From: Gemmatimonadota bacterium
GTDB lineage: Bacteria; Gemmatimonadota; Gemmatimonadetes; Gemmatimonadales; Gemmatimonadaceae
Length of the DNA stretch: 49,508 nucleotides
Assembly: GCA_021299375.1 (NCBI GenBank)
Contig: JAJTGR010000043.1
Span: forward strand, 1 to 49,508
Direction: 5' to 3'
Part shown: in pieces, positions 31,406-49,081 of the stretch
Layout of the letters: each line of letters begins with the position of its first letter
How positions within the stretch are numbered: the first letter of the stretch is position 1
Position numbers and translations under genes: made by a program
Notes under the pieces: generated by a model
The model's database searches: none
What the model saw: the letters and a program-made list of their open reading frames with translations, nothing else
What the model was told of the DNA's origin: nothing

Positions 31406-32008
31406 TCACTTGGGCAACGGCGTGCGGCGGAGCACACGCCCGAGGTCGGCTGCGAGCGCTTCCCACCGCGTACCGAAGGGATACAGCGCCACCAGCGCCC
31501 CCGTGTCGTCCACCAGAAAGACCTGCGATGAGTGGCTTACCAGATAGCCGCTGGCCGTCGGGGCGTCCTCCTTCGCGGCAGCCACGCCGAAGGCCTGCAT
31601 GATGTTCGCCGTCGTCATCGGGTCACCCGAGAGCCCCACGAAGCTGGCGTCGTATTGGGTGGCATAGCGCTGGGCCACCGCCGGCGTGTCGCGTTCCGGG
31701 TCGACCGACACGAACACCCAGCGCACCCGCGCCGCCGCGTCCCCCAGCTGCGCCTTGGCGCGCTTCCAGTCTGCCAGCGTGGTGGGGCATACGTCCGGGC
31801 AGTGCGTGTACCCGAAGAACAGCACCATCGGACGGCCCGGCTCCGGCGCCGTGGCGAAGGGCGAACCGTCCGCCCGTGCAAACGTGAACGCGGCCATGGG
31901 GCGCGGCGGATCGACGGCGACGCCGTCGAACACCGCATGGGATTCACACCCGCTGAAGAGCCACGCCGCGAGGAGAGCGCCCGTTGATCGGGTCAGGGCG
32001 CGGCGCAT
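31406..32008 (-). CDS. SCO1/SenC-family copper-binding thioredoxin-fold lipoprotein
   Basis: The protein has 200 aa. Lipoprotein signal TRSTGALLAAWLFSGCES has the lipid Cys at 21. The copper site is Cys70-x3-Cys74 in GYTHCPDVCPTTLADWKRA, with the third ligand His in YLVSHSSQVFLVDD (about 160). VFVSVDPERDTPAVAQRYA is a family hallmark. Role: assembly of the cytochrome c oxidase CuA centre. The start could also be GTG 32017. It overlaps the end of the Fur-family gene by 16 bp, so it lies in the same operon. Confidence 0.9.
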   Translation of the reverse strand: MRRALTRSTGALLAAWLFSGCESHAVFDGVAVDPPRPMAAFTFARADGSPFATAPEPGRPMVLFFGYTHCPDVCPTTLADWKRAKAQLGDAAARVRWVFVSVDPERDTPAVAQRYATQYDASFVGLSGDPMTTANIMQAFGVAAAKEDAPTASGYLVSHSSQVFLVDDTGALVALYPFGTRWEALAADLGRVLRRTPLPK

Positions 32009-32367
32009 AGCGCGCACAGGCCGTACAACACCACTTCATGCGACTCGAGCCGGAAGCCGGAGGGCGTGAGGTCGCGCAGGTCTCCTGGGCACCCATGAAT
32101 TTCGAACACCCGATTGCACGCCCGGCAGCTGAAGTGGTGGTGATGGGCCGAGCCCGCGCGTTCGTACCGTGGCGCTTCGCCGGGCAGTTCCACCGGAACG
32201 AGCCAGCCGCTGTCCACCAGCGAGTTGATGGTGCGGTAGACCGTCGCAATGCCCAGCTTCGCGACCTGCCCACGCCCCGCCTCCAGGACCTCGTGCGGCC
32301 CGAGGGGGCGCGGCGTTTCCTCAAACACCTGACGGATGGCGTCGCGCTGTCGTGTGTTGCGTTCCAT
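31993..32367 (-). CDS. Fur-family metalloregulator (Zur candidate)
   Basis: The protein has 124 aa. The winged-helix part includes RQRDAIRQVFEETPRPLGPH and GIATVYRTINSLVDSGWL. The dimer domain has the HHHHFSCRACNRVFEIHGC segment and a second CxxC (LYGLCALCAAP), giving the four-Cys structural zinc site. The pattern ESHEVVLYGLCALC resembles Zur more than iron-sensing Fur, but assignment by eye is not secure. It leads an operon with copper chaperones and biotin genes. A CATATT hexamer lies six bases before the ATG. It is a reasonable candidate for the protein reading the TGATAAT boxes found between 34 and 46 kb. Confidence 0.87.
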   Translation of the reverse strand: MERNTRQRDAIRQVFEETPRPLGPHEVLEAGRGQVAKLGIATVYRTINSLVDSGWLVPVELPGEAPRYERAGSAHHHHFSCRACNRVFEIHGCPGDLRDLTPSGFRLESHEVVLYGLCALCAAP

Positions 32368-33984: not shown

Positions 33985-34012
33985 TTGATTTTAGCTGATA
34001 ATGGCATATCAT
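33985..34012 (+). promoter_or_regulatory. TonB-receptor promoter with Zur-like box
   Basis: TTGATT (33985-33990), 16-bp spacer, TATCAT (34007-34012), then exactly six bases to ATG 34019. The 16-bp element TGATAATGGCATATCA (33996-34011) overlaps spacer and -10. It has TGATA...TATCA dyad symmetry and resembles elements at 41216 and 46036, so a repressor bound there would block transcription. Confidence 0.6.
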
Positions 34013-34018
34013 GTGCGA

Positions 34019-40626: not shown

Positions 40627-41211
40627 CTACTGCACCCGCTCGCGCTCGGCCCGCGCACTCCAGATGGCCGCCAGGTCGGTTGTCTCGCAGAAGCGCCGCC
40701 GTTTGTGTCGCGGCAATTGGGCCAGCACTCGGCTTCGGTGGGCGGTCCCGAGGGCCTGACGGGCCCATGATTCGTAGCGCGTGAGCTGCACGGCCAATTC
40801 GGTCAGGGCGCGGTGGACCCGGTCCCAGTCGGCCGCTGAGACCGGAGAGCGGCTCACGGGAAGCGCGCTCGGTTTGTGCAGCGGGAGCGGCAAGGCATCG
40901 CGCAGCAGGCGCGGCGTCATGGCGTGGCGTTGGATCAGGACACCTGGTGTCAGCAAGGCAGACTCTGGCATCGCGTCGCCGCCGACCGGCCCGATGTACA
41001 CGCCGAACCCCCAGCAGACGAGCTGCCCGGCGGACCCATCGAGCGGCAGGCAGTAACACGTGGTACCGCCTCCCTCGCCGCTGCGCAGACGTGCAAAGCC
41101 GAACCGCACCAGCGCATTGCCTTCGGCGTGCCGGATATCGTGGCCGATGAACCACAGCTGCTGATCGAGCAGGACCGAGAGCCGGTGGGCAGTGGGGGGT
41201 TGCAGGGCCAT
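40627..41211 (-). CDS. Uncharacterised protein sharing a Zur-like promoter with L33/CobW
   Basis: The protein has 194 aa, no signal peptide. It begins [20 protein letters not shown]. Recognisable blocks: [40 protein letters not shown] and DDW-type [20 protein letters not shown], ending with a basic stretch ([20 protein letters not shown]). Four Cys and several His could bind a metal. I recognise no family. The promoter is strong on paper: TTGACG, 16 bp, TATTAT, then six bases to ATG. The TGATAAT box covers it, so it is probably induced under the same condition as the zinc-independent L33. Confidence 0.65.
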
Positions 41212-41245
41212 TTAATGATAATAGTGTCGCAGTACTATACGTCAA
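41212..41245. promoter_or_regulatory. Divergent promoter with Zur-like box (unknown gene / rpmG-cobW)
   Basis: Minus: TTGACG (41245-41240), 16-bp spacer, TATTAT (41223-41218), six bases to ATG 41211. Plus: TACTAT at 41233-41238 is a possible -10 for rpmG. The element TGATAATAGTGTCGCA (41216-41231) overlies the minus -10, and the dyad ATAGT...ACTAT continues to the right. One repressor could silence both directions. Confidence 0.6.
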
Positions 41246-41265: not shown

Positions 41266-41424
41266 ATGGCAAAGTCCGGCCGGGTCCAGGTGAAGCTGCG
41301 CTCCACCGAGAGCCACTTCATGTACGTCACGACCAAGAATCCGCGCACCACGCCGCAGCGCATTGAACAGCGCAAGTACGACCCGCACGTGCAGCGCCAC
41401 GTGCTCTTCCGGGAGTCCAAGTGA
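41266..41424 (+). CDS. rpmG: Ribosomal protein L33, cysteine-free (zinc-independent) form
   Basis: The protein has 52 aa: [20 protein letters not shown], then [20 protein letters not shown]. It has no Cys, so it lacks the zinc ribbon of the C+ form. In many bacteria the C- paralogue is made under zinc starvation and replaces the C+ protein in the ribosome. Here it shares a promoter region with a TGATAAT box and is coupled to a COG0523 GTPase. A GAGGT Shine-Dalgarno five bases before ATG 41266 contrasts with the leaderless neighbours. C- L33 is also the ordinary form in many species, so the rest of the genome must be checked. Confidence 0.9.
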
Positions 41425-42692
41425 GCGCCGCCACGACCTTGTCGACCGATCGCCGGCTGCCGGTCACGGTGCTGTCCGGCTTCCTCGGCGCCGGCAAGAC
41501 GACGCTGCTCAATCACGTGCTGGCCAACCGCGACGGCCTGCGGGTGGCGGTCATCGTCAACGACATGAGCGAAGTGAACATCGACGCCCAGCTCGTGCGC
41601 GGCGGCGAGGCGGCGCTGTCGCGCACGCAGGAAACGCTGGTCGAGATGACGAACGGCTGCATCTGCTGCACGCTGCGCGATGACCTGCTGCAGGAGGTCG
41701 CGCGCCTCGCCGCCGAGGGGCGCTTCGATTATCTGCTCATCGAAAGCACCGGCATCGGTGAGCCACTGCCGGTCGCGGCCACCTTCACCTTCGAAACCGA
41801 AGAGGGCGTGTCGCTGTCGCACGTGGCCCGGCTCGACACCATGGTCACGGTGGTCGACGCCCACCGCTTCCGCACCGACCTCGGTTCACTCGACGACCTG
41901 CGCGCCCGCCAGTTGGCGCTCGGCGACGACGATGAGCGTACGATCCCCGACTTGCTCATCGATCAGGTCGAGTTCGCGAACGTCATCGTCATCAACAAGG
42001 CGGACCTGCTCAGCGAGCACGCGCTCGGCGAGTTGCAGGCGCTGCTGCGGCATCTCAACCCGGACGCCGAGCTGATCGTCGCGACCCGCGGCGTCGTGGC
42101 GCCGGCGCGGATTCTCGGCACCGGCCGGTTCGATTTCGAGCAGGCCGAAGCGGCGCCTGGCTGGCAGAAGGAGCTCAACGGTGAGCATGTGCCGGAAACC
42201 GAGGAGTACGGCATCGGCAGCTTCGTGTACCGGGCGCGTCGTCCGTTTCACCCCGAGCGGCTCTGGCGGGCGGTGGATACCGGGCTGCCCGGCGTGCTGC
42301 GCGCCAAGGGGTTTTTCTGGGTGGCAACACGCCCGGATCTGGTGGGGACGTGGTCGCAAGCTGGCCAGTTGCTGGAGGTGAACCCCGGCGGTTACTGGTA
42401 TGCGGCCAGTGCGCCGGAGCACTGGGACGTGGATGACGAGCAGCGGCAGGTCATCCTCGATCTGTGGCATCCGGAACTCGGCGACCGTCGGCAGGAGATT
42501 GCCATCATCGGGCAGGGGCTCAACCAGGCGGCCCTCACGGCGATGCTCGACGCCTGCCTGGTGACGGAGGAGGAGCAGCGCGCCGGTCCGTCGCTGTGGC
42601 AGACCTTCACCGACCCGTTCCCCGAGTGGAGTGAAGTGGAGGTGGACGACGAGGAGAGCGAGCAGGACATCGACAAGGTCATCGCCTCGTGA
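41421..42692 (+). CDS. COG0523 (CobW/ZNG1-type) GTPase, putative zinc metallochaperone
   Basis: G3E GTPase of 423 aa. Walker [10 protein letters not shown] (residues 20-28), NDMSEVNID, the metal-binding Cys80-x-Cys82-Cys83 in [16 protein letters not shown], switch [15 protein letters not shown], and NKADLLSE (about 192). The C-terminal CobW_C domain contains [16 protein letters not shown]. Such proteins bind Zn in the CxCC site and hand it to client enzymes, often in Zur regulons. The tail is strongly acidic ([15 protein letters not shown]). The start is GTG 41421, overlapping the rpmG stop. A 13-bp hairpin follows the stop. Confidence 0.9.
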
Positions 42693-43904: not shown

Positions 43905-43950
43905 GATCAATGGGATCGAGAAGGCCCGTGCCGAACTGGAGCGTTTTTAT

Positions 43951-43966
43951 TGACAGTGGCGTATCA
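43951..43966. promoter_or_regulatory. Weaker Zur-like box
   Basis: TGACAGTGGCGTATCA keeps the TGAnA...TATCA frame of the 33996 element, and its right part TGGCGTATCATG matches TGGCATATCATG there with one change. It lies 47 bp upstream of the DsbA-like gene. No clear promoter is seen, so this is the least certain of the four. Confidence 0.3.
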
Positions 43967-44058
43967 TGAATAGGGAAGGGGCGCGTGGCTCTGGCCGCCG
44001 CGCCGGGCTATTTCGCGACGCAGGCTGAGATGACGAACAGTTTGTCAATCAATCGATC

Positions 44059-44093: not shown

Positions 44094-44441
44094 ATGACCG
44101 ACGTCGACTGCACCGACCTACCCCACATTCCGCTGGCCCAGCGCCCCAGCGTGTCACCCGCGGTGCGGGATCGGGCCGCCCGCATGCTGAGCGCCGCCGG
44201 CGAGCCATCGCGGCTTGCCCTGCTCGAGCAGCTCGAAGGGCGTGAACTGTGTGTGTCGGATCTGGTGCACATCACCGGCGACCCCATGCCGACGATTTCG
44301 CAGCGCTTGCGCGTGCTCAAGACCGAAGGGCTGCTGCGCTCGCGTCGCGAAGGCAAGCACGTGTTCTACACCCTCGCGGACGGGCACGTCCAGGAATTGC
44401 TCCGCAACATCCTGCGCCACGCCGCGGAGCTCGCGGGCTAG
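44094..44441 (+). CDS. ArsR/SmtB-family zinc-sensing repressor
   Basis: The protein has 115 aa. The helix-turn-helix is SDLVHITGDPMPTISQRLRV then LKTEGLLRSRREGKHVFY. The alpha-5 zinc site is complete: Asp96, His98, His109, Glu112, exactly the D-x-H-x10-H-x2-E spacing of SmtB/CzrA. Extra possible ligands are Cys6 and His11 in the N-terminal arm and Cys53 in ELCVSD. Metal binding would release it from DNA and so switch on efflux or storage genes. The first target is probably the His-rich gene right behind it. Confidence 0.92.
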   Translation: MTDVDCTDLPHIPLAQRPSVSPAVRDRAARMLSAAGEPSRLALLEQLEGRELCVSDLVHITGDPMPTISQRLRVLKTEGLLRSRREGKHVFYTLADGHVQELLRNILRHAAELAG

Positions 44442-44521
44442 CCCCATGGTCGCACGCCGCGGGCGCCGCCGAGGGCGACCGCGGATCATCCTCAGCCTCG
44501 GCCCTCCACAGGAGTCGCAAC

Positions 44522-44863
44522 TTGTCACATCACGCCGATCATCCGCACACCCACGGCCCGGGTTGCGGGCACACCGGGGTCCTGCACAACGGGCACGTCG
44601 ACTATCTGCACGACGGGCATCTGCACCATCAGGATGGGACCGTGGTCGAGGAGCATCGCTTCGATGTCTCCGACGCCAATCCCTCGGCCTGCACGCCGTC
44701 GCACCGGTGCGGTGGGCACGATGCGGCGCACGTGCACGGCGTCGGATGCGGTCACCCTCCCGTGCCCCATGGCGATCACATGGACTACCTCGTCGACGGA
44801 CACCTGCATCATCCGCACGACGGGCACTGCGACTTCCACGGGGCCCTCGCCTCGGTGGCCTGA
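44522..44863 (+). CDS. Tiny His-rich metal-binding protein
   Basis: The protein has 113 aa, with about one quarter His. The start is TTG 44522 with AGGAG seven bases before; there is no closer ATG/GTG. It is built of two similar halves: GCGHTGVLHNGHVDYLHDGH and GCGHPPVPHGDHMDYLVDGH, joined by EEHRFDVSDANPSACTPSHR. Cys-Gly-His triplets and HxH pairs are good for zinc buffering. There is no signal peptide, so it should be cytosolic. Similar short proteins accompany ArsR-type genes in other bacteria. Probably a zinc store or chaperone controlled by the SmtB-type repressor. Confidence 0.75.
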   Translation: MSHHADHPHTHGPGCGHTGVLHNGHVDYLHDGHLHHQDGTVVEEHRFDVSDANPSACTPSHRCGGHDAAHVHGVGCGHPPVPHGDHMDYLVDGHLHHPHDGHCDFHGALASVA

Positions 44864-44944: not shown

Positions 44945-45565
44945 TCAATCTTCGCGGTAGGGCACGATGCGCTGGCCGGTCATGGTGAACGACACCGCCC
45001 CGTACGGGCTGTTCACCCGCTGCACTTCGAGCAGACCTTCCACCCAGACCGGGTCGAAAAGCGCGAGCGACTTCGGGCCGCCGGCCAGCTTCACGAATAC
45101 CATCTGATTGGGCGGCGGTGGCGGCGTGTGCACGCAGGCGCCGAAATAGGGCACCAGCAGGAACTCCTTGGCCCGCTCCTGGAAATCCTCGAGCGGCACG
45201 ATGAACCCGGGGATGCGTACGCGACGCCCCTTCAGCCGCGCCAACTCAGGCGGGACGCTCGTGGAGCGGTAGTCCAGCAGCCCCAGTAGGCGCCAGTCCA
45301 CGGTGAGTATGGTCGGGTCGGGAGCCTCGTCAGGCGGGGCGTCTGCCGCAGTGTCGCCTGTCGTGCCGGCCACTGGCGCCTGGATCGGGGCGTGGCGCGC
45401 GCCATAGAGTACCTCGGTTGGTAGGGGCGCGGGCCGAACCGACCAGTACGCGGCGAGGATCACCACCACGAGCACCTGCAGTGCGCGCACCACCCGTCGC
45501 CTCCCAGCCGATGGCAACCTCGGAGGAAGGGGGAGCCGGCGTTCGGCGGCGCGCCCGTCCGTCAC
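44945..45565 (-). CDS. DUF3299 protein, membrane-anchored
   Basis: The protein has 206 aa, start GTG 45565, overlapping the MerC-like stop (GTGA). One N-terminal membrane segment (VVRALQVLVVVILAAYWSVR), then a Pro/Asp-rich linker, then the DUF3299 domain: DWRLLGLLDYRSTSVPPELA, IPGFIVPLEDFQERAKEFLL, VPYFGACVHTPPPPPNQMVF, ending TMTGQRIVPYRED. The conserved Cys-x-His in GACVHTPPPPPNQ could be a metal site. As I recall, members are found with ZrgA-type zinc uptake genes. A second copy of the domain is encoded at 48563-49081. Confidence 0.82.
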   Translation of the reverse strand: MTDGRAAERRLPLPPRLPSAGRRRVVRALQVLVVVILAAYWSVRPAPLPTEVLYGARHAPIQAPVAGTTGDTAADAPPDEAPDPTILTVDWRLLGLLDYRSTSVPPELARLKGRRVRIPGFIVPLEDFQERAKEFLLVPYFGACVHTPPPPPNQMVFVKLAGGPKSLALFDPVWVEGLLEVQRVNSPYGAVSFTMTGQRIVPYRED

Positions 45566-46029
45566 GAGGTCGTGGCCGCTGCGTCGCGGGTGGCGCACGG
45601 CGCGCAGACGCGCCCGTCGCGCCAGTTCAGCACATGCGCAGCCACGAGCCCCGCCGCACCGACCACCACCACGAGCGGCTCCACCGTTTCCGAGAGACCG
45701 CTGACGCGTGCGAGCAGCAGCACACCGATGCCGAGCCCGAACAGCACCAGCGGGCGCCGTCGGCCATGGGCGCGGCGTCCGCTGCGCAGCGCCACGGTGC
45801 CGATCACCAGCGACGCACTCAGGAAAGCCCACTCGAGCCAGTCCGACAGCGCCTGTCCGAATCCGAAAAGCGCGAGCATCGCCAGAAAGAAGGCACCGGC
45901 CGCGCAGTGGATGGCGCAGATGACAGACACGGTGATCCCGGCGGCATCGAGCCACACGGCGCGAAGACGTGTCCCGATGCTGATCGTCTGCGGCGCTTGC
46001 ATGTCCACGGCGAGGGGCGATGTAGGCAT
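45562..46029 (-). CDS. MerC-like inner-membrane protein
   Basis: The protein has 155 aa with four predicted membrane helices. The MerC pattern is visible in helix 1 (AGITVSVICAIHCAAGAFFL: Cys-x2-His-Cys). A terminal Cys pair follows (NWRDGRVCAPCATRDA). MerC proteins bring in mercury; relatives without a mer operon probably handle zinc or other soft metals. It carries a TGATAAT box over its promoter and is coupled to a DUF3299 gene, which suggests zinc uptake. Start ATG 46029. Confidence 0.8.
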   Translation of the reverse strand: MPTSPLAVDMQAPQTISIGTRLRAVWLDAAGITVSVICAIHCAAGAFFLAMLALFGFGQALSDWLEWAFLSASLVIGTVALRSGRRAHGRRRPLVLFGLGIGVLLLARVSGLSETVEPLVVVVGAAGLVAAHVLNWRDGRVCAPCATRDAAATTS

Positions 46030-46034
46030 AATTA

Positions 46035-46062
46035 ATGATAATAGCTAATCAATACCCGTCAA
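46035..46062 (-). promoter_or_regulatory. merC-DUF3299 promoter with Zur-like box
   Basis: Minus strand: TTGACG (46062-46057), 16-bp spacer, TATCAT (46040-46035), five bases to ATG 46029. TGATAATAGCTAATCA at 46036-46051 covers the -10. The 13-mer TTAATGATAATAG is shared exactly with the 41212 promoter. Confidence 0.6.
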
Positions 46063-46174: not shown

Positions 46175-46225
46175 CAATTGCGTCTGACAGTGCAATTGCA
46201 GCGCGGGCCGATGCGTCGCTAATCT
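46175..46225 (+). promoter_or_regulatory. Transporter promoter with a separate inverted-repeat operator
   Basis: The perfect inverted repeat CAATTGC-N10-GCAATTG (46175-46198) runs into TTGCAG (46196-46201, -35). An 18-bp spacer, TAATCT (46220-46225) and six bases to ATG 46232 follow. It differs from the TGATAAT boxes, so another regulator, perhaps the SmtB-type protein, is expected. Confidence 0.45.
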
Positions 46226-46231
46226 TCCGAC

Positions 46232-48049
46232 ATGTCGGGCCCCGCATTCCTTGCCGCCAGCCTCGGTGCCCTCGCGGCCGGTCCGGTCATCACGTGGTTG
46301 GCGGGGCATCGGACCCAGCTGCTCGCCTTTCTCGACGGCCTCATCCTCGTCGCGATCGGCGGGCTGGTCCTCTTCGCTGTGGTGCCGCACGCCTTGCACG
46401 AGCGCGATCTCGTGGCGGTGGCGTGCATGCTCGCCGGCCTTGTCCTTCCGACGCTGGCCGAACGCCTGTTACACTACGGGGCCCGCCAGACACACGCGGT
46501 GGTCGTCCTGCTCGCGCTGTGTGGGGTGGCGGTCCACTCCGCCCTCGACGGCAGCGCCCTCCGCCAGGCAGGAGATGACCCGGCCAGCGTGCTCGGGTAC
46601 GGCGTGTTGCTGCACCAGATTCCGGTGAGTCTCACCGTCTGGTGGGTCTTGCGGGACCGGCCGCGCGTCGTGGCCTGGGCTGCCCTCGGGTTGATGGCGC
46701 TCACGACCATCGTTGGCTACGCGGCCGAACCGGTCGTGCTCGCGCTGCTGCCGGACTCGGCGGCGCTCTGGTTCGAGGCGCTCGTGGCCGGGTCGCTGCT
46801 GCATGTCATCTCCCACCCGGCGCACGATCACGCGCACGATCACGCGCACGATCACGCGCACGATCACGCGCACGATCACGCACACGACCACGCACACGAC
46901 CACGCACACGACCACGCACACGACCACGCACACGGCGACGCTCCGTGGACGAACGGTATGGGGGCGCTTGCCGGCCTCGGATTGCTCGTCGCGCTCTACC
47001 TTGGCCGTGACGCGTCGGTCGAGGTGCCGGTGGACGGCACCCTGCGCACCTTCTGGTCGCTCCTGCTCGACACCGCCCCGGCCGTACTGTTGGCCTATGT
47101 AGCGGCCGGGCTGCTGCATGCCTTTCTCCCCGCCAGCAGCCTGACGTGGCTGAGCCGCGGTTCCCGGCTCCGGCAAGGCATGGCCGGCATGGCGGTTGGT
47201 CTGCCGTTACCGATCTGTTCCTGCGGCGTGGTGCCGCTCTACCAGCAGATCGTGCAGCAAGGCGCGTCCACGACCGCGGCGATCGCATTTCTCGTGGCCA
47301 CGCCCGAACTGGGTATCGATGCGGTGCTGCTGTCCGTTCCGCTGCTCGGCGCACCGTTCGCTGTCGTGCGTGTGCTGGCGGCCGTTGCGGCCGCATTGAC
47401 GGTGGCGCTGATCATGGGACGCTATGTGCGCAGCCGTGGACGCGCCTTGCCCGTGGCGGCGCCGGTGACCGCCCAACCGACAATTCCCGACCGTATGCGC
47501 CGGGCGGTGCAGATCGGGTTGGGTGAGATGGTCGACCACACCGCGCCGTGGATTCTGGTGGGGCTGCTTCTGGCCGCCCTTGCGATGCCCTTGCTGGAGG
47601 GCTCGTGGCTGACGCGACTGCCGACCGGCGTCGATGTCGTGGTGTTCGCCGTGCTCGGCCTGCCCCTCTACATTTGCGCGTCGGCGTCGACGCCGCTGGT
47701 GGCCGTGCTCGTCGCCGCTGGTGTCTCCCCGGGCGCTGGTCTGGCGCTGTTGCTCACCGGACCGGCCACCAACGTGGCCACGTTGGGTATCCTCACCCGC
47801 ATGCATGGGCGCCGCTTCGCCATTGGCTTTGCGGTGGCCATGAGCGTGAGCGCGGTCGTGCTCGGGTGGCTGACCAATCTGTTTCTGCCCTCGCTCGGTG
47901 CCTCGCAGCCGGCGATCGATGCCGAGCAGCTGGGAACGCCCTGGCAGGTCGCTGCCGTCGCGCTGGTGGCGCTGCTCTACGCGGCGTCGATCGTGCGGCG
48001 CGGTATACGAGGCTTTCTCGGCGAGCTTCGGCTGGCCGAATCGCACTGA
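46232..48049 (+). CDS. ZIP-like / SO_0444-type Cu-Zn permease fusion with (AHDH)9 linker
   Basis: Membrane protein of 605 aa. The N-terminal 195 residues look like a ZIP-type unit (FLDGLILVAIGGLVLFAVVP, GVAVHSALDGSALRQA, LGYGVLLHQIPVSLTVWWVL, LVAGSLLHVISH) with His in membrane helices. Residues 197-232 are nine Ala-His-Asp-His repeats. The C-terminal part (about 250-600) is a permease of the ArsP/SO_0444 efflux type: LPLPICSCGVVPLYQQIVQQ with Cys-x-Cys near 330, ATPELGIDAVLLSVPLLGAP, and a second half-site GLPLYICASASTPLVAVLVA. It probably moves zinc or copper out of the cell, with the His loop as sensor or buffer. It is convergent with the DUF2796 gene; stops are one base apart. Confidence 0.82.
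   Translation: MSGPAFLAASLGALAAGPVITWLAGHRTQLLAFLDGLILVAIGGLVLFAVVPHALHERDLVAVACMLAGLVLPTLAERLLHYGARQTHAVVVLLALCGVAVHSALDGSALRQAGDDPASVLGYGVLLHQIPVSLTVWWVLRDRPRVVAWAALGLMALTTIVGYAAEPVVLALLPDSAALWFEALVAGSLLHVISHPAHDHAHDHAHDHAHDHAHDHAHDHAHDHAHDHAHDHAHGDAPWTNGMGALAGLGLLVALYLGRDASVEVPVDGTLRTFWSLLLDTAPAVLLAYVAAGLLHAFLPASSLTWLSRGSRLRQGMAGMAVGLPLPICSCGVVPLYQQIVQQGASTTAAIAFLVATPELGIDAVLLSVPLLGAPFAVVRVLAAVAAALTVALIMGRYVRSRGRALPVAAPVTAQPTIPDRMRRAVQIGLGEMVDHTAPWILVGLLLAALAMPLLEGSWLTRLPTGVDVVVFAVLGLPLYICASASTPLVAVLVAAGVSPGAGLALLLTGPATNVATLGILTRMHGRRFAIGFAVAMSVSAVVLGWLTNLFLPSLGASQPAIDAEQLGTPWQVAAVALVALLYAASIVRRGIRGFLGELRLAESH
46820..46927 (+). repeat. 12-bp coding tandem repeat (Ala-His-Asp-His x9)
   Basis: Five copies of GCGCACGATCAC are followed by four of GCACACGACCAC. 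Each block is internally uniform but the two use different codons, so they expanded separately. The repeat stays in frame. Confidence 0.95.
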
Positions 48050-48050
48050 C

Positions 48051-48572
48051 TTACGGAATCACCTGGCCGCGATCGCGGCTGATGGTGGCGCCCACCTGCG
48101 CCGTGTCGGACACCAGCTGGATAGCGACCCGGTCGATCCCCGGGAACGCGGCGCTGAAGCCGAAACGGATCGGTTTTCCGGCCACCGGCTTCTTGCAGGC
48201 AATGCGATATTGGGCGCGGACCTCCCCGTGTCCGGACCGCTCCTCCACCACCCGGACCTCCTGCGGCGCGACGGTGCAGCCAAGGGTCGCATCGAAACGC
48301 AGCAGTTGCGCGCCCTGCGTGCGCAGGCGTTGGAGCGCGGCCTCCTGCTTGGCACGCTCGGCGGCGGTGCGCGGCGCGCGCTCGAAGCCGTAGAGATCAT
48401 CGCCGGCTCCGCGAAACTCCGCCGTGCCGCCGGTGCCTTCCATGCCGACGATGAGCGAGGCTTGACCGTGCACGTGTTGGGCGCGCAGGGACGTCGCGCC
48501 CAGTGCGCTGAGGGTGAGCAGGGCGCTTCCCACGGTGAAGGAGCGAGTCAGGGTGCGCGTGGTCAGGGCCAT
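48051..48572 (-). CDS. DUF2796 (ZrgA-like) periplasmic zinc-binding protein
   Basis: The protein has 173 aa. Signal peptide SFTVGSALLTLSALGATSLR, ending AQ. The mature start QHVHGQASLIVGMEG is typical of DUF2796. Further pieces: GAGDDLYGFERAPRTAAERA, RFDATLGCTVAPQEVRVVEE, EVRAQYRIACKKPVAGKPI with two Cys. Known ZrgA proteins carry a long His-rich insert; this one is short of His, so it may be a minimal version. It overlaps the DUF3299 gene by 10 bp. Expected role: zinc capture in the periplasm. Confidence 0.8.
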   Translation of the reverse strand: MALTTRTLTRSFTVGSALLTLSALGATSLRAQHVHGQASLIVGMEGTGGTAEFRGAGDDLYGFERAPRTAAERAKQEAALQRLRTQGAQLLRFDATLGCTVAPQEVRVVEERSGHGEVRAQYRIACKKPVAGKPIRFGFSAAFPGIDRVAIQLVSDTAQVGATISRDRGQVIP

Positions 48573-49081
48573 TTGCCGGTCTTTTCGTAGGGGACGATTC
48601 GGTCGACCCGCATCTGGAAGCCGGCGACGCCGTAGACGGACTTGTATTTGATAACCTGCAGTGTGCCCTCGATCCAGACGGGTTCCATCGTCGATATCCG
48701 CGTCGTGCTCTGCAGGGTCACATACACCAGCTGGTTGGGCGGCGGCGGCGGCAGGTGTACGCAGGCGCCGAAGTAGGGCACCAGCAGGAACTCCTTGGCG
48801 CGCTCCTGAAAGTCCTCGAGAGGCACGACAAAGCCGGCCAGGCGCACCAGCCGACGCTCGAGCGATCGGAGCGTATCGCTCACCTGCCCCGTCTTGAAGT
48901 CGAGGGTACGCAGCACACGCCAATCGATGGTGATGACGTCGGCAGCGGCCGGCCCCACCTCGCCGTGCCTTTCGACCGCGGACGGTCCGCCGATTGCCTG
49001 AGCCGAGGCCACCGGTGTGGCGCCGCACAGGGCAGCGACGCCCAGCATACTCACCGACGACAGCCAGCGACGAACAGGCAT
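48563..49081 (-). CDS. Second DUF3299 protein, secreted
   Basis: The protein has 172 aa. Signal peptide RRWLSSVSMLGVAALCGATP ending ASAQA. The domain is very like the one at 44945: DWRVLRTLDFKTGQVSDTLR, LAGFVVPLEDFQERAKEFLL, VPYFGACVHLPPPPPNQLVY, ending FQMRVDRIVPYEKTGKWP. The Cys-x-His-x-Pro block is kept. It lies between the WD40 gene (7 bp) and the DUF2796 gene (overlap), a three-gene operon. Confidence 0.85.
   Translation of the reverse strand: MPVRRWLSSVSMLGVAALCGATPVASAQAIGGPSAVERHGEVGPAAADVITIDWRVLRTLDFKTGQVSDTLRSLERRLVRLAGFVVPLEDFQERAKEFLLVPYFGACVHLPPPPPNQLVYVTLQSTTRISTMEPVWIEGTLQVIKYKSVYGVAGFQMRVDRIVPYEKTGKWP

Follow-up and report, generated by a model that had tools for sequence, protein, structure and literature searches.

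The metal ligands of BbZIP, a structurally characterized ZIP transporter, are M99, H177, N178, E181, Q207, D208, E211, and E240, and H275 and E276 of helix 7 line the metal exit (PMC9873690). The His-rich loop between TM3 and TM4 of BbZIP senses zinc and throttles uptake (PMC10256678). On the efflux side, SO_0444 protects against an excess of Zn and Cu, and SO_0444 mutants are sensitive to both metals (PMC3219624). In Vibrio, ZrgA acts in zinc acquisition. COG0523 proteins together with zinc-free ribosomal paralogues are hallmarks of Zur regulons, and Zur activates exporters in some bacteria (PMC6103462). The window analyzed here, a 49,508-nucleotide stretch of a Gemmatimonas genome, carries a gene whose single product links a ZIP-type fold, through a His/Asp array, to a distinct permease fold (Table 1). 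We found no description of such a ZIP/ArsP_1 fusion in the open-access literature; the subscription literature lay outside the scope of the search and may hold an earlier one.

Table 1. Features of the fusion gene and its surroundings in the window.
Feature	Coordinates	Strand	Basis
Second Fur-family regulator, proposed Zur	31993..32367	-	Pfam FUR; second of the genome's two Fur paralogues
Predicted Zur/Fur-type operator 5' of L33-zigA (same as that at MerC/fusion)	41212..41234	+	13-mer, PWM
Cysteine-free bL33 ribosomal protein, zinc-independent type	41266..41424	+	Sequence
ZigA, zinc metallochaperone GTPase (COG0523)	41421..42692	+	NCBIfam NF038288, 607 bits over cut-off 600
Other DUF3299 protein	within 44945-45955	-	Pfam
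MerC-family membrane protein, divergent from fusion	45562..46029	-	Pfam MerC 7e-24
Predicted Zur/Fur-type operator between MerC and fusion	46032..46054	+	13-mer at two genome sites; top match of window-free PWM
Possible degenerate second box, 51 bp 5' of fusion ATG	46181..46203	+	Weak PWM 8.2; suggestive
Fusion gene, 605 aa	46232..48049	+	ORF, GC3, full-length homologues
ZIP-fold unit helices 1-7 (aa 1-196), incl. H102, D106, H128, H191, H195, D35	46232..46819	+	AF2, VIA alignment to BbZIP, conservation, hhalign
AHDH x9 (aa 197-232), TM7-TM8 loop, predicted cytoplasmic	46820..46927	+	ZIP homology topology, positive-inside counts
ZIP-fold unit helix 8 (aa 238-258)	46943..47005	+	VIA alignment, model 1-258 to BbZIP 57-307
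ArsP_1 permease domain (aa 271-549), ion-transporter (ArsB/INDY) fold	47042..47878	+	Pfam; Z 13.8 to ArsB 10tp_A
CSC motif (C329, C331)	47216..47224	+	Sequence; relatives
ZrgA-family zinc-uptake protein	48051..48620	-	Pfam ZrgA 7e-31
DUF3299 protein	48563..49081	-	Pfam

An earlier note on this DNA had described one reading frame with a ZIP-like N-terminal unit, nine Ala-His-Asp-His repeats, and a permease with a CSC motif. The frame is a single uninterrupted ORF that starts with ATG and has a high GC content at third codon positions, the AHDH units number exactly nine, and an ArsP_1 domain with CSC at aa 329-331 follows them. A frame artefact or a chance repeat was ruled out by the ORF, GC3, and array analyses, and a mis-joined pair of genes by the occurrence of one frame across the fusion-bearing Gemmatimonas genomes. 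Five of the units are encoded by GCGCACGATCAC and the next four by GCACACGACCAC; these two codon versions, five of one and then four of the other, show that the array grew by tandem duplication. Tandem Repeats Finder gave a period of 12, 9.3 copies, and a match of 98%. The array varies in homologues, and Nannocystis has a C-terminal His tail in its place. A homologue from the Shewanella order (L091, 1240-3582, minus strand) has a linker with very long tandem GHDDHA/V-type units, unlike the AHDH of the window.

The fold of the chain was predicted with AlphaFold2 from a shallow alignment of 15 rows, the window protein plus 14 relatives. The model had a mean pLDDT of 84.1 and a pTM of 0.83, and its confidence was very low over just one long stretch, the array. 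Residues 1-258 matched BbZIP with a VIA Z of 16.9 (3.4 Å over 208 residues, spanning eight helices), and ZIP entries, led by those of BbZIP, outranked all non-ZIP structure matches, which speaks against an unrelated membrane fold. When predicted alone, the N-terminal unit again matched ZIP, with a reduced Z of 9.7 (Foldseek probability 1.00, E 0.006). The unit is thus ZIP-like as the earlier note had claimed, but it is not just the stretch before the array, since the helix after it belongs to the fold too; the domain would therefore have eight helices, with the array as the loop between TM7 and TM8. Both the ZIP topology and an excess of arginine in loops 1-2, 3-4, and 5-6 (5, versus 2 in loops 2-3, 4-5, and 6-7, a weak count) predict that this loop is cytoplasmic.

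Sequence profiles agreed with the model. Pfam Zip (PF02535) matched aa 86-192 of the window protein with E 2.5e-4 to 4e-5 and 20.8-23.4 bits, below the gathering score of 35.1 bits, and matched 11 of 15 homologous N-units (best E 2.8e-7); the fusion of the congener G020 narrowly cleared the cut-off with 35.3 bits. A profile of the N-units retrieved the classical ZIPs of Gemmatimonadaceae with E of about 1e-16, and hhalign aligned the two groups with a probability of 98.9. Run against PDB sequences, the N-unit profile returned chance matches only. As predicted structure and sequence profiles concur, we assign a ZIP fold to the N-terminal unit (aa 1-258) on the strength of the model. The ZIP subgroup that the N-unit profile found best carries HT[FI]xDG and HK[LVIF]PEG motifs, has a lysine in place of the M2 aspartate, and is common in Gemmatimonadaceae (L138, L162, L170, and other loci).

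The metal site was compared with that of BbZIP by hhalign and motif alignment. H102, D106, and H128 align with H177, E181, and Q207, so that ligands are present at the M1 positions as H/D/H, as in the LIV-1 type. The M2 ligands N178, D208, and E240 are missing, the window protein having S103 and Q129, and E211 is replaced by V132. Among 63 N-units of four architectures, standalone ones included, H102, D106, H128, and H191 are nearly invariant, with few exceptions, and neither E nor H was found at position 132. A glutamate at the E211 position is also missing in gemmatimonad LIV-1-type ZIPs. Through a common AG...VxSH pattern, H195 would correspond to BbZIP H275. Judged from these alignments, the metal site of the ZIP-like half is changed, not discarded; because the E211 position is V132 and the M2 ligands are missing, transport activity is not assured.

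The C-terminal half matched Pfam ArsP_1 (PF03773) with E 3e-35 and 122.3 bits, clearing the gathering score of 32.3, and the model after residue 258 matched ArsB as well as further structures with the ion-transporter fold. A PDB sequence search with the permease profile returned zero matches. The CSC lies in the context PICSCGVVPLY (aa 327-337); CSC or CAC was present in every full-size fused permease of the first set of relatives, and a YxC site is also kept wherever the permease is full-size. Against the NCBIfam SO_0444 model (NF033936) the window permease scored 219.4 bits, below the equivalog cut-off of 300, and three relatives scored 195-218 bits. The Gemmatimonadota rows were 48-60% identical to the window in the N-unit and 54-66% identical in the permease half.

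Of 30 Gemmatimonas genomes, 24 carry the fusion, and wherever the contig was complete it forms one frame. Five genomes (G005, G011, G014, G017, and G020) gave two matched pieces within a single frame, and G012 and G014 were cut by contig ends. It also occurs in a second genus of Gemmatimonadaceae and, beyond the family, in Bdellovibrionales, Nannocystis, marine Deltaproteobacteria, and others. Within the GTDB order that contains Shewanella, 95 of 247 genomes had an N-unit match. There the unit is followed by a permease without CSC (CxPDA type), by a gutted permease, or stands alone as a protein of about 200-290 aa, so that a gene that is never split in Gemmatimonas does have a counterpart in many gammaproteobacteria that consists of the N-unit only. 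Next to the standalone and CSC-less gammaproteobacterial forms lie unrelated genes, for example those for an FAD-linked oxidase, a flavodoxin, and a DeoR regulator, and no zinc genes were seen among these neighbours. A search of 72,556 plasmid records returned one weak match, to the permease only.

The gutted permease was found at 18 Shewanella-type loci. A 516-598 aa version, with the ZIP-like unit intact and the CSC core of the permease lost, is seen at the Shewanella-type loci L034, L045, and L054-L070. In the closed Gemmatimonas genome G020 the CSC region is likewise gone from a gene that retains its N-unit and stands at the same zigA and L33 locus. By this comparison the permease half appears to have been gutted independently at least twice, in Shewanella and in G020. 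Since the N-unit persists whether fused, gutted, or alone, the ZIP-fold unit is the constant part of the family.

The locus has two alternative fillings, SCO1-Fur-PAP2-[fusion] and SCO1-(Fur)-PAP2-[classical ZIP]. A classical ZIP takes the place of the fusion, among the same neighbours, in G010, G008, and G018 and in two species of another genus. Of the six Gemmatimonas genomes without the fusion, five have a classical ZIP, which in all three testable cases occupies the locus of the fusion; the sixth (G023), a fragmented assembly, has neither. Conversely, none of the 24 fusion-bearing Gemmatimonas genomes gave another Zip match, an apparent extra ZIP in G020 being its own fusion. No ABC-3 (ZnuB-type) permease was found in the window genome and no strong one in the fusion-bearing genomes examined, with weak matches of 20-30 bits in G005, G016, and G020. 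In a phylogeny built from the two flanking proteins the replacement is one event, and the mutual exclusion of ZIP and fusion is thus a strong single case, not a set of repeated cases. The inner-membrane zinc-import slot appears to be filled by the fusion.

The genes around the fusion point in the same direction (Table 1). Besides those listed, the window encodes a TonB receptor and, at 44094, an ArsR-type regulator; the neighbours that were inspected included no ZntR-type (MerR) gene. The usual order in relatives is SCO1-Fur and, divergently, PAP2-fusion-COG0523 GTPase, often with zigA-L33, ZrgA, and DUF3299 as well, and in many relatives the COG0523 GTPase is immediately 3' of the fusion. A marine deltaproteobacterial contig (L029) groups MerC, the fusion, a relative of DUF4876, and ZigA. 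Directly 3' of the ArsR-type gene, a frame at 44249-44863 (plus strand) encodes a small His-rich protein (GCGHTGVLHNGHVDYLHDGHLHH...), and this pair also stands 5' of the fusion in G005 and G006. An uncharacterized ORF of 194 aa at 40627-41211 (minus strand), without a Pfam match, is abutted by the L33-zigA box and recurs beside zigA in G015 and G005.

A predicted operator is common to the fusion and to L33-zigA, a pair of known Zur targets typical of zinc starvation. The 13-mer TTAATGATAATAG has just two sites in the 4.48-Mb genome (at most two mismatches), one 5' of L33-zigA and the other in the divergent MerC/fusion promoter. The box TGATAgTGnnTTnGCAATA was found in the fusion promoters of relatives (12 of 17 sequences, window excluded) 23-106 bp upstream of the ATG; its palindromic form had a log-likelihood ratio of 88-96 versus 28-40 in shuffles, a figure inflated by kinship. 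With a PWM built from the 12 relatives' sites, the window being left out, both window operators ranked first, at 25.0 and 22.1, and 40 shuffled windows gave a best score of 21.8 and a mean best of 11.1. The same PWM found the box 5' of the classical ZIP in G010 (25.8) and, more weakly, in two species of another genus (15.7 and 17.9). In the window the box adjoins MerC and is separated by 188 bp from the ATG of the fusion; the degenerate second box stands where the box is found in some relatives. In G008 and G018 the Fur gene of the locus is missing, a single Fur paralogue remains genome-wide, and the strong box is missing too. As both are missing together, the second Fur paralogue seems to pair with the box, and we infer that it is Zur. 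At the distant fusion loci L027-L035 the PWM did not find the Gemmatimonas box convincingly. Weaker box-like sites lie at 33992-34014, at the start of a gene run for a TonB receptor, DUF4876, and DUF6850, and at 43947-43969, between a DsbA-like gene and ArsR; they score no higher than the best shuffle (21.8) and are at most suggestive of further regulon members.

We consider it probable, though well short of certain, that the fusion, a divergent ZIP-fold protein carrying an ArsP_1-type permease at its end, serves in zinc acquisition and is made, under Zur-like control, when zinc is scarce. The neighbours, the common operator, the replacement of a classical ZIP, and the independent loss of the permease core suggest that the ZIP-like half is the essential half and working core and that the setting is one of zinc starvation; for these two reasons the protein most likely helps zinc uptake rather than export. 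As zinc falls, a Zur-type repressor of the Fur family, probably the one in Table 1, would leave the common box. Periplasmic zinc would arrive by way of the nearby TonB receptor and the ZrgA- and DUF3299-type proteins and may be held in the ZIP fold by the M1 core, aided by H191 and H195 of helix 7. It would then be released to the cytoplasmic loop, where the 18 His and 9 Asp of the array could buffer it; alternatively the array may sense zinc and throttle uptake, by analogy with the BbZIP loop and from another loop of the fold. The COG0523/ZigA GTPases encoded alongside may take the zinc over, and the permease half would be an accessory that can be lost. Several observations count against zinc acquisition: V132, with never E or H at that position, the missing M2 ligands, the distance of the box from the ATG and its place beside MerC, the gammaproteobacterial forms without zinc-gene neighbours, the single replacement event, the shallow alignment behind the model, and the SO_0444 phenotype.

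That phenotype belongs to the reading of the earlier note, a Zn/Cu exporter of SO_0444 type in which the ZIP-fold half and the His array are a cytoplasmic-zinc sensor or delivery module. An ArsP_1 half with CSC, a cytoplasmic array, the nearby ArsR-type regulator, and the exporters that Zur activates in some bacteria are all consistent with it. We nevertheless find it unlikely: the SO_0444 score is under the equivalog cut-off, the box is common with L33-zigA and a classical ZIP, the fusion stands in for a ZIP importer at the same locus, and what was lost is the permease core and not the ZIP half. Neither the SO_0444 phenotype nor Zur-activated exporters account for the replacement or for that loss. 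The permease loss also makes it quite unlikely that both halves transport, with the ZIP importing zinc and the permease exporting zinc or a thiol/metal complex in a two-way valve or exchange cycle. Conservation of the two halves and retention of the CSC and YxC sites in full-size permeases would fit this, but nothing points to coupling, and the N-unit stays where the core is lost (G020, Shewanella) or CxPDA replaces CSC (other gammaproteobacteria). A version in which the chain couples a ZIP importer to an ArsB-fold permease in a zinc-starvation cycle, the His/Asp loop being the hand-over point, seems improbable to us; if true, zinc could come in as a thiol or a second ion goes out, for example, and the one chain would replace classical ZIP and ABC importers in Gemmatimonas. 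The lost E211 position and M2 ligands, and a new and nearly invariant H191 in a unit conserved even alone, would instead suit a ZIP fold that no longer transports and serves as a zinc receptor in the membrane or as a scaffold for assembly, working with the COG0523 chaperones and the periplasmic proteins encoded nearby. That nearly all members keep the M1 H-D-H core, and that the fusion takes the locus of a classical importer, leaves this very unlikely. On balance we retain zinc acquisition as the best explanation.

On that explanation, the fusion would be the zinc importer of the inner membrane that had been missing in Gemmatimonas. Automatic annotation would call it a Cu/Zn efflux pump and the evidence suggests the opposite role, so that genomes carrying it are probably misread. 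The family would be a branch of the ZIP fold in which the central ligand was lost, the His loop moved, and a second transporter fold acquired or shed, and its natural variants (fused, gutted, and standalone) make the minimum metal site of a ZIP directly testable.

Compared with known systems, the protein resembles the SO_0444-type Cu/Zn efflux permeases in its ArsP_1 half with CSC, but it scores below their cut-off, has a ZIP-fold half in front and a permease half that evolution can dispense with, and lies among zinc-starvation genes with no ZntR-type gene seen adjacent. It shares eight helices, the M1 residues, and a His-rich cytoplasmic loop with the ZIP family (BbZIP, LIV-1 type), but falls below the Pfam cut-off, has V132 for E211, lacks the M2 ligands (Q/R at 129), and, unlike BbZIP, bears its His loop at TM7-TM8 instead of TM3-TM4 and a permease at its end. 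The locus is like the Zur-regulated zinc-acquisition loci (Vibrio zrgABCDE, zigA/rpmG) in its ZrgA, ZigA/COG0523, cysteine-free L33, TonB receptor, Fur-family regulator, and common box, and unlike them in a genome without a zinc ABC permease. With the classical ZIP of its sister species the fusion has in common both the locus and the operator.
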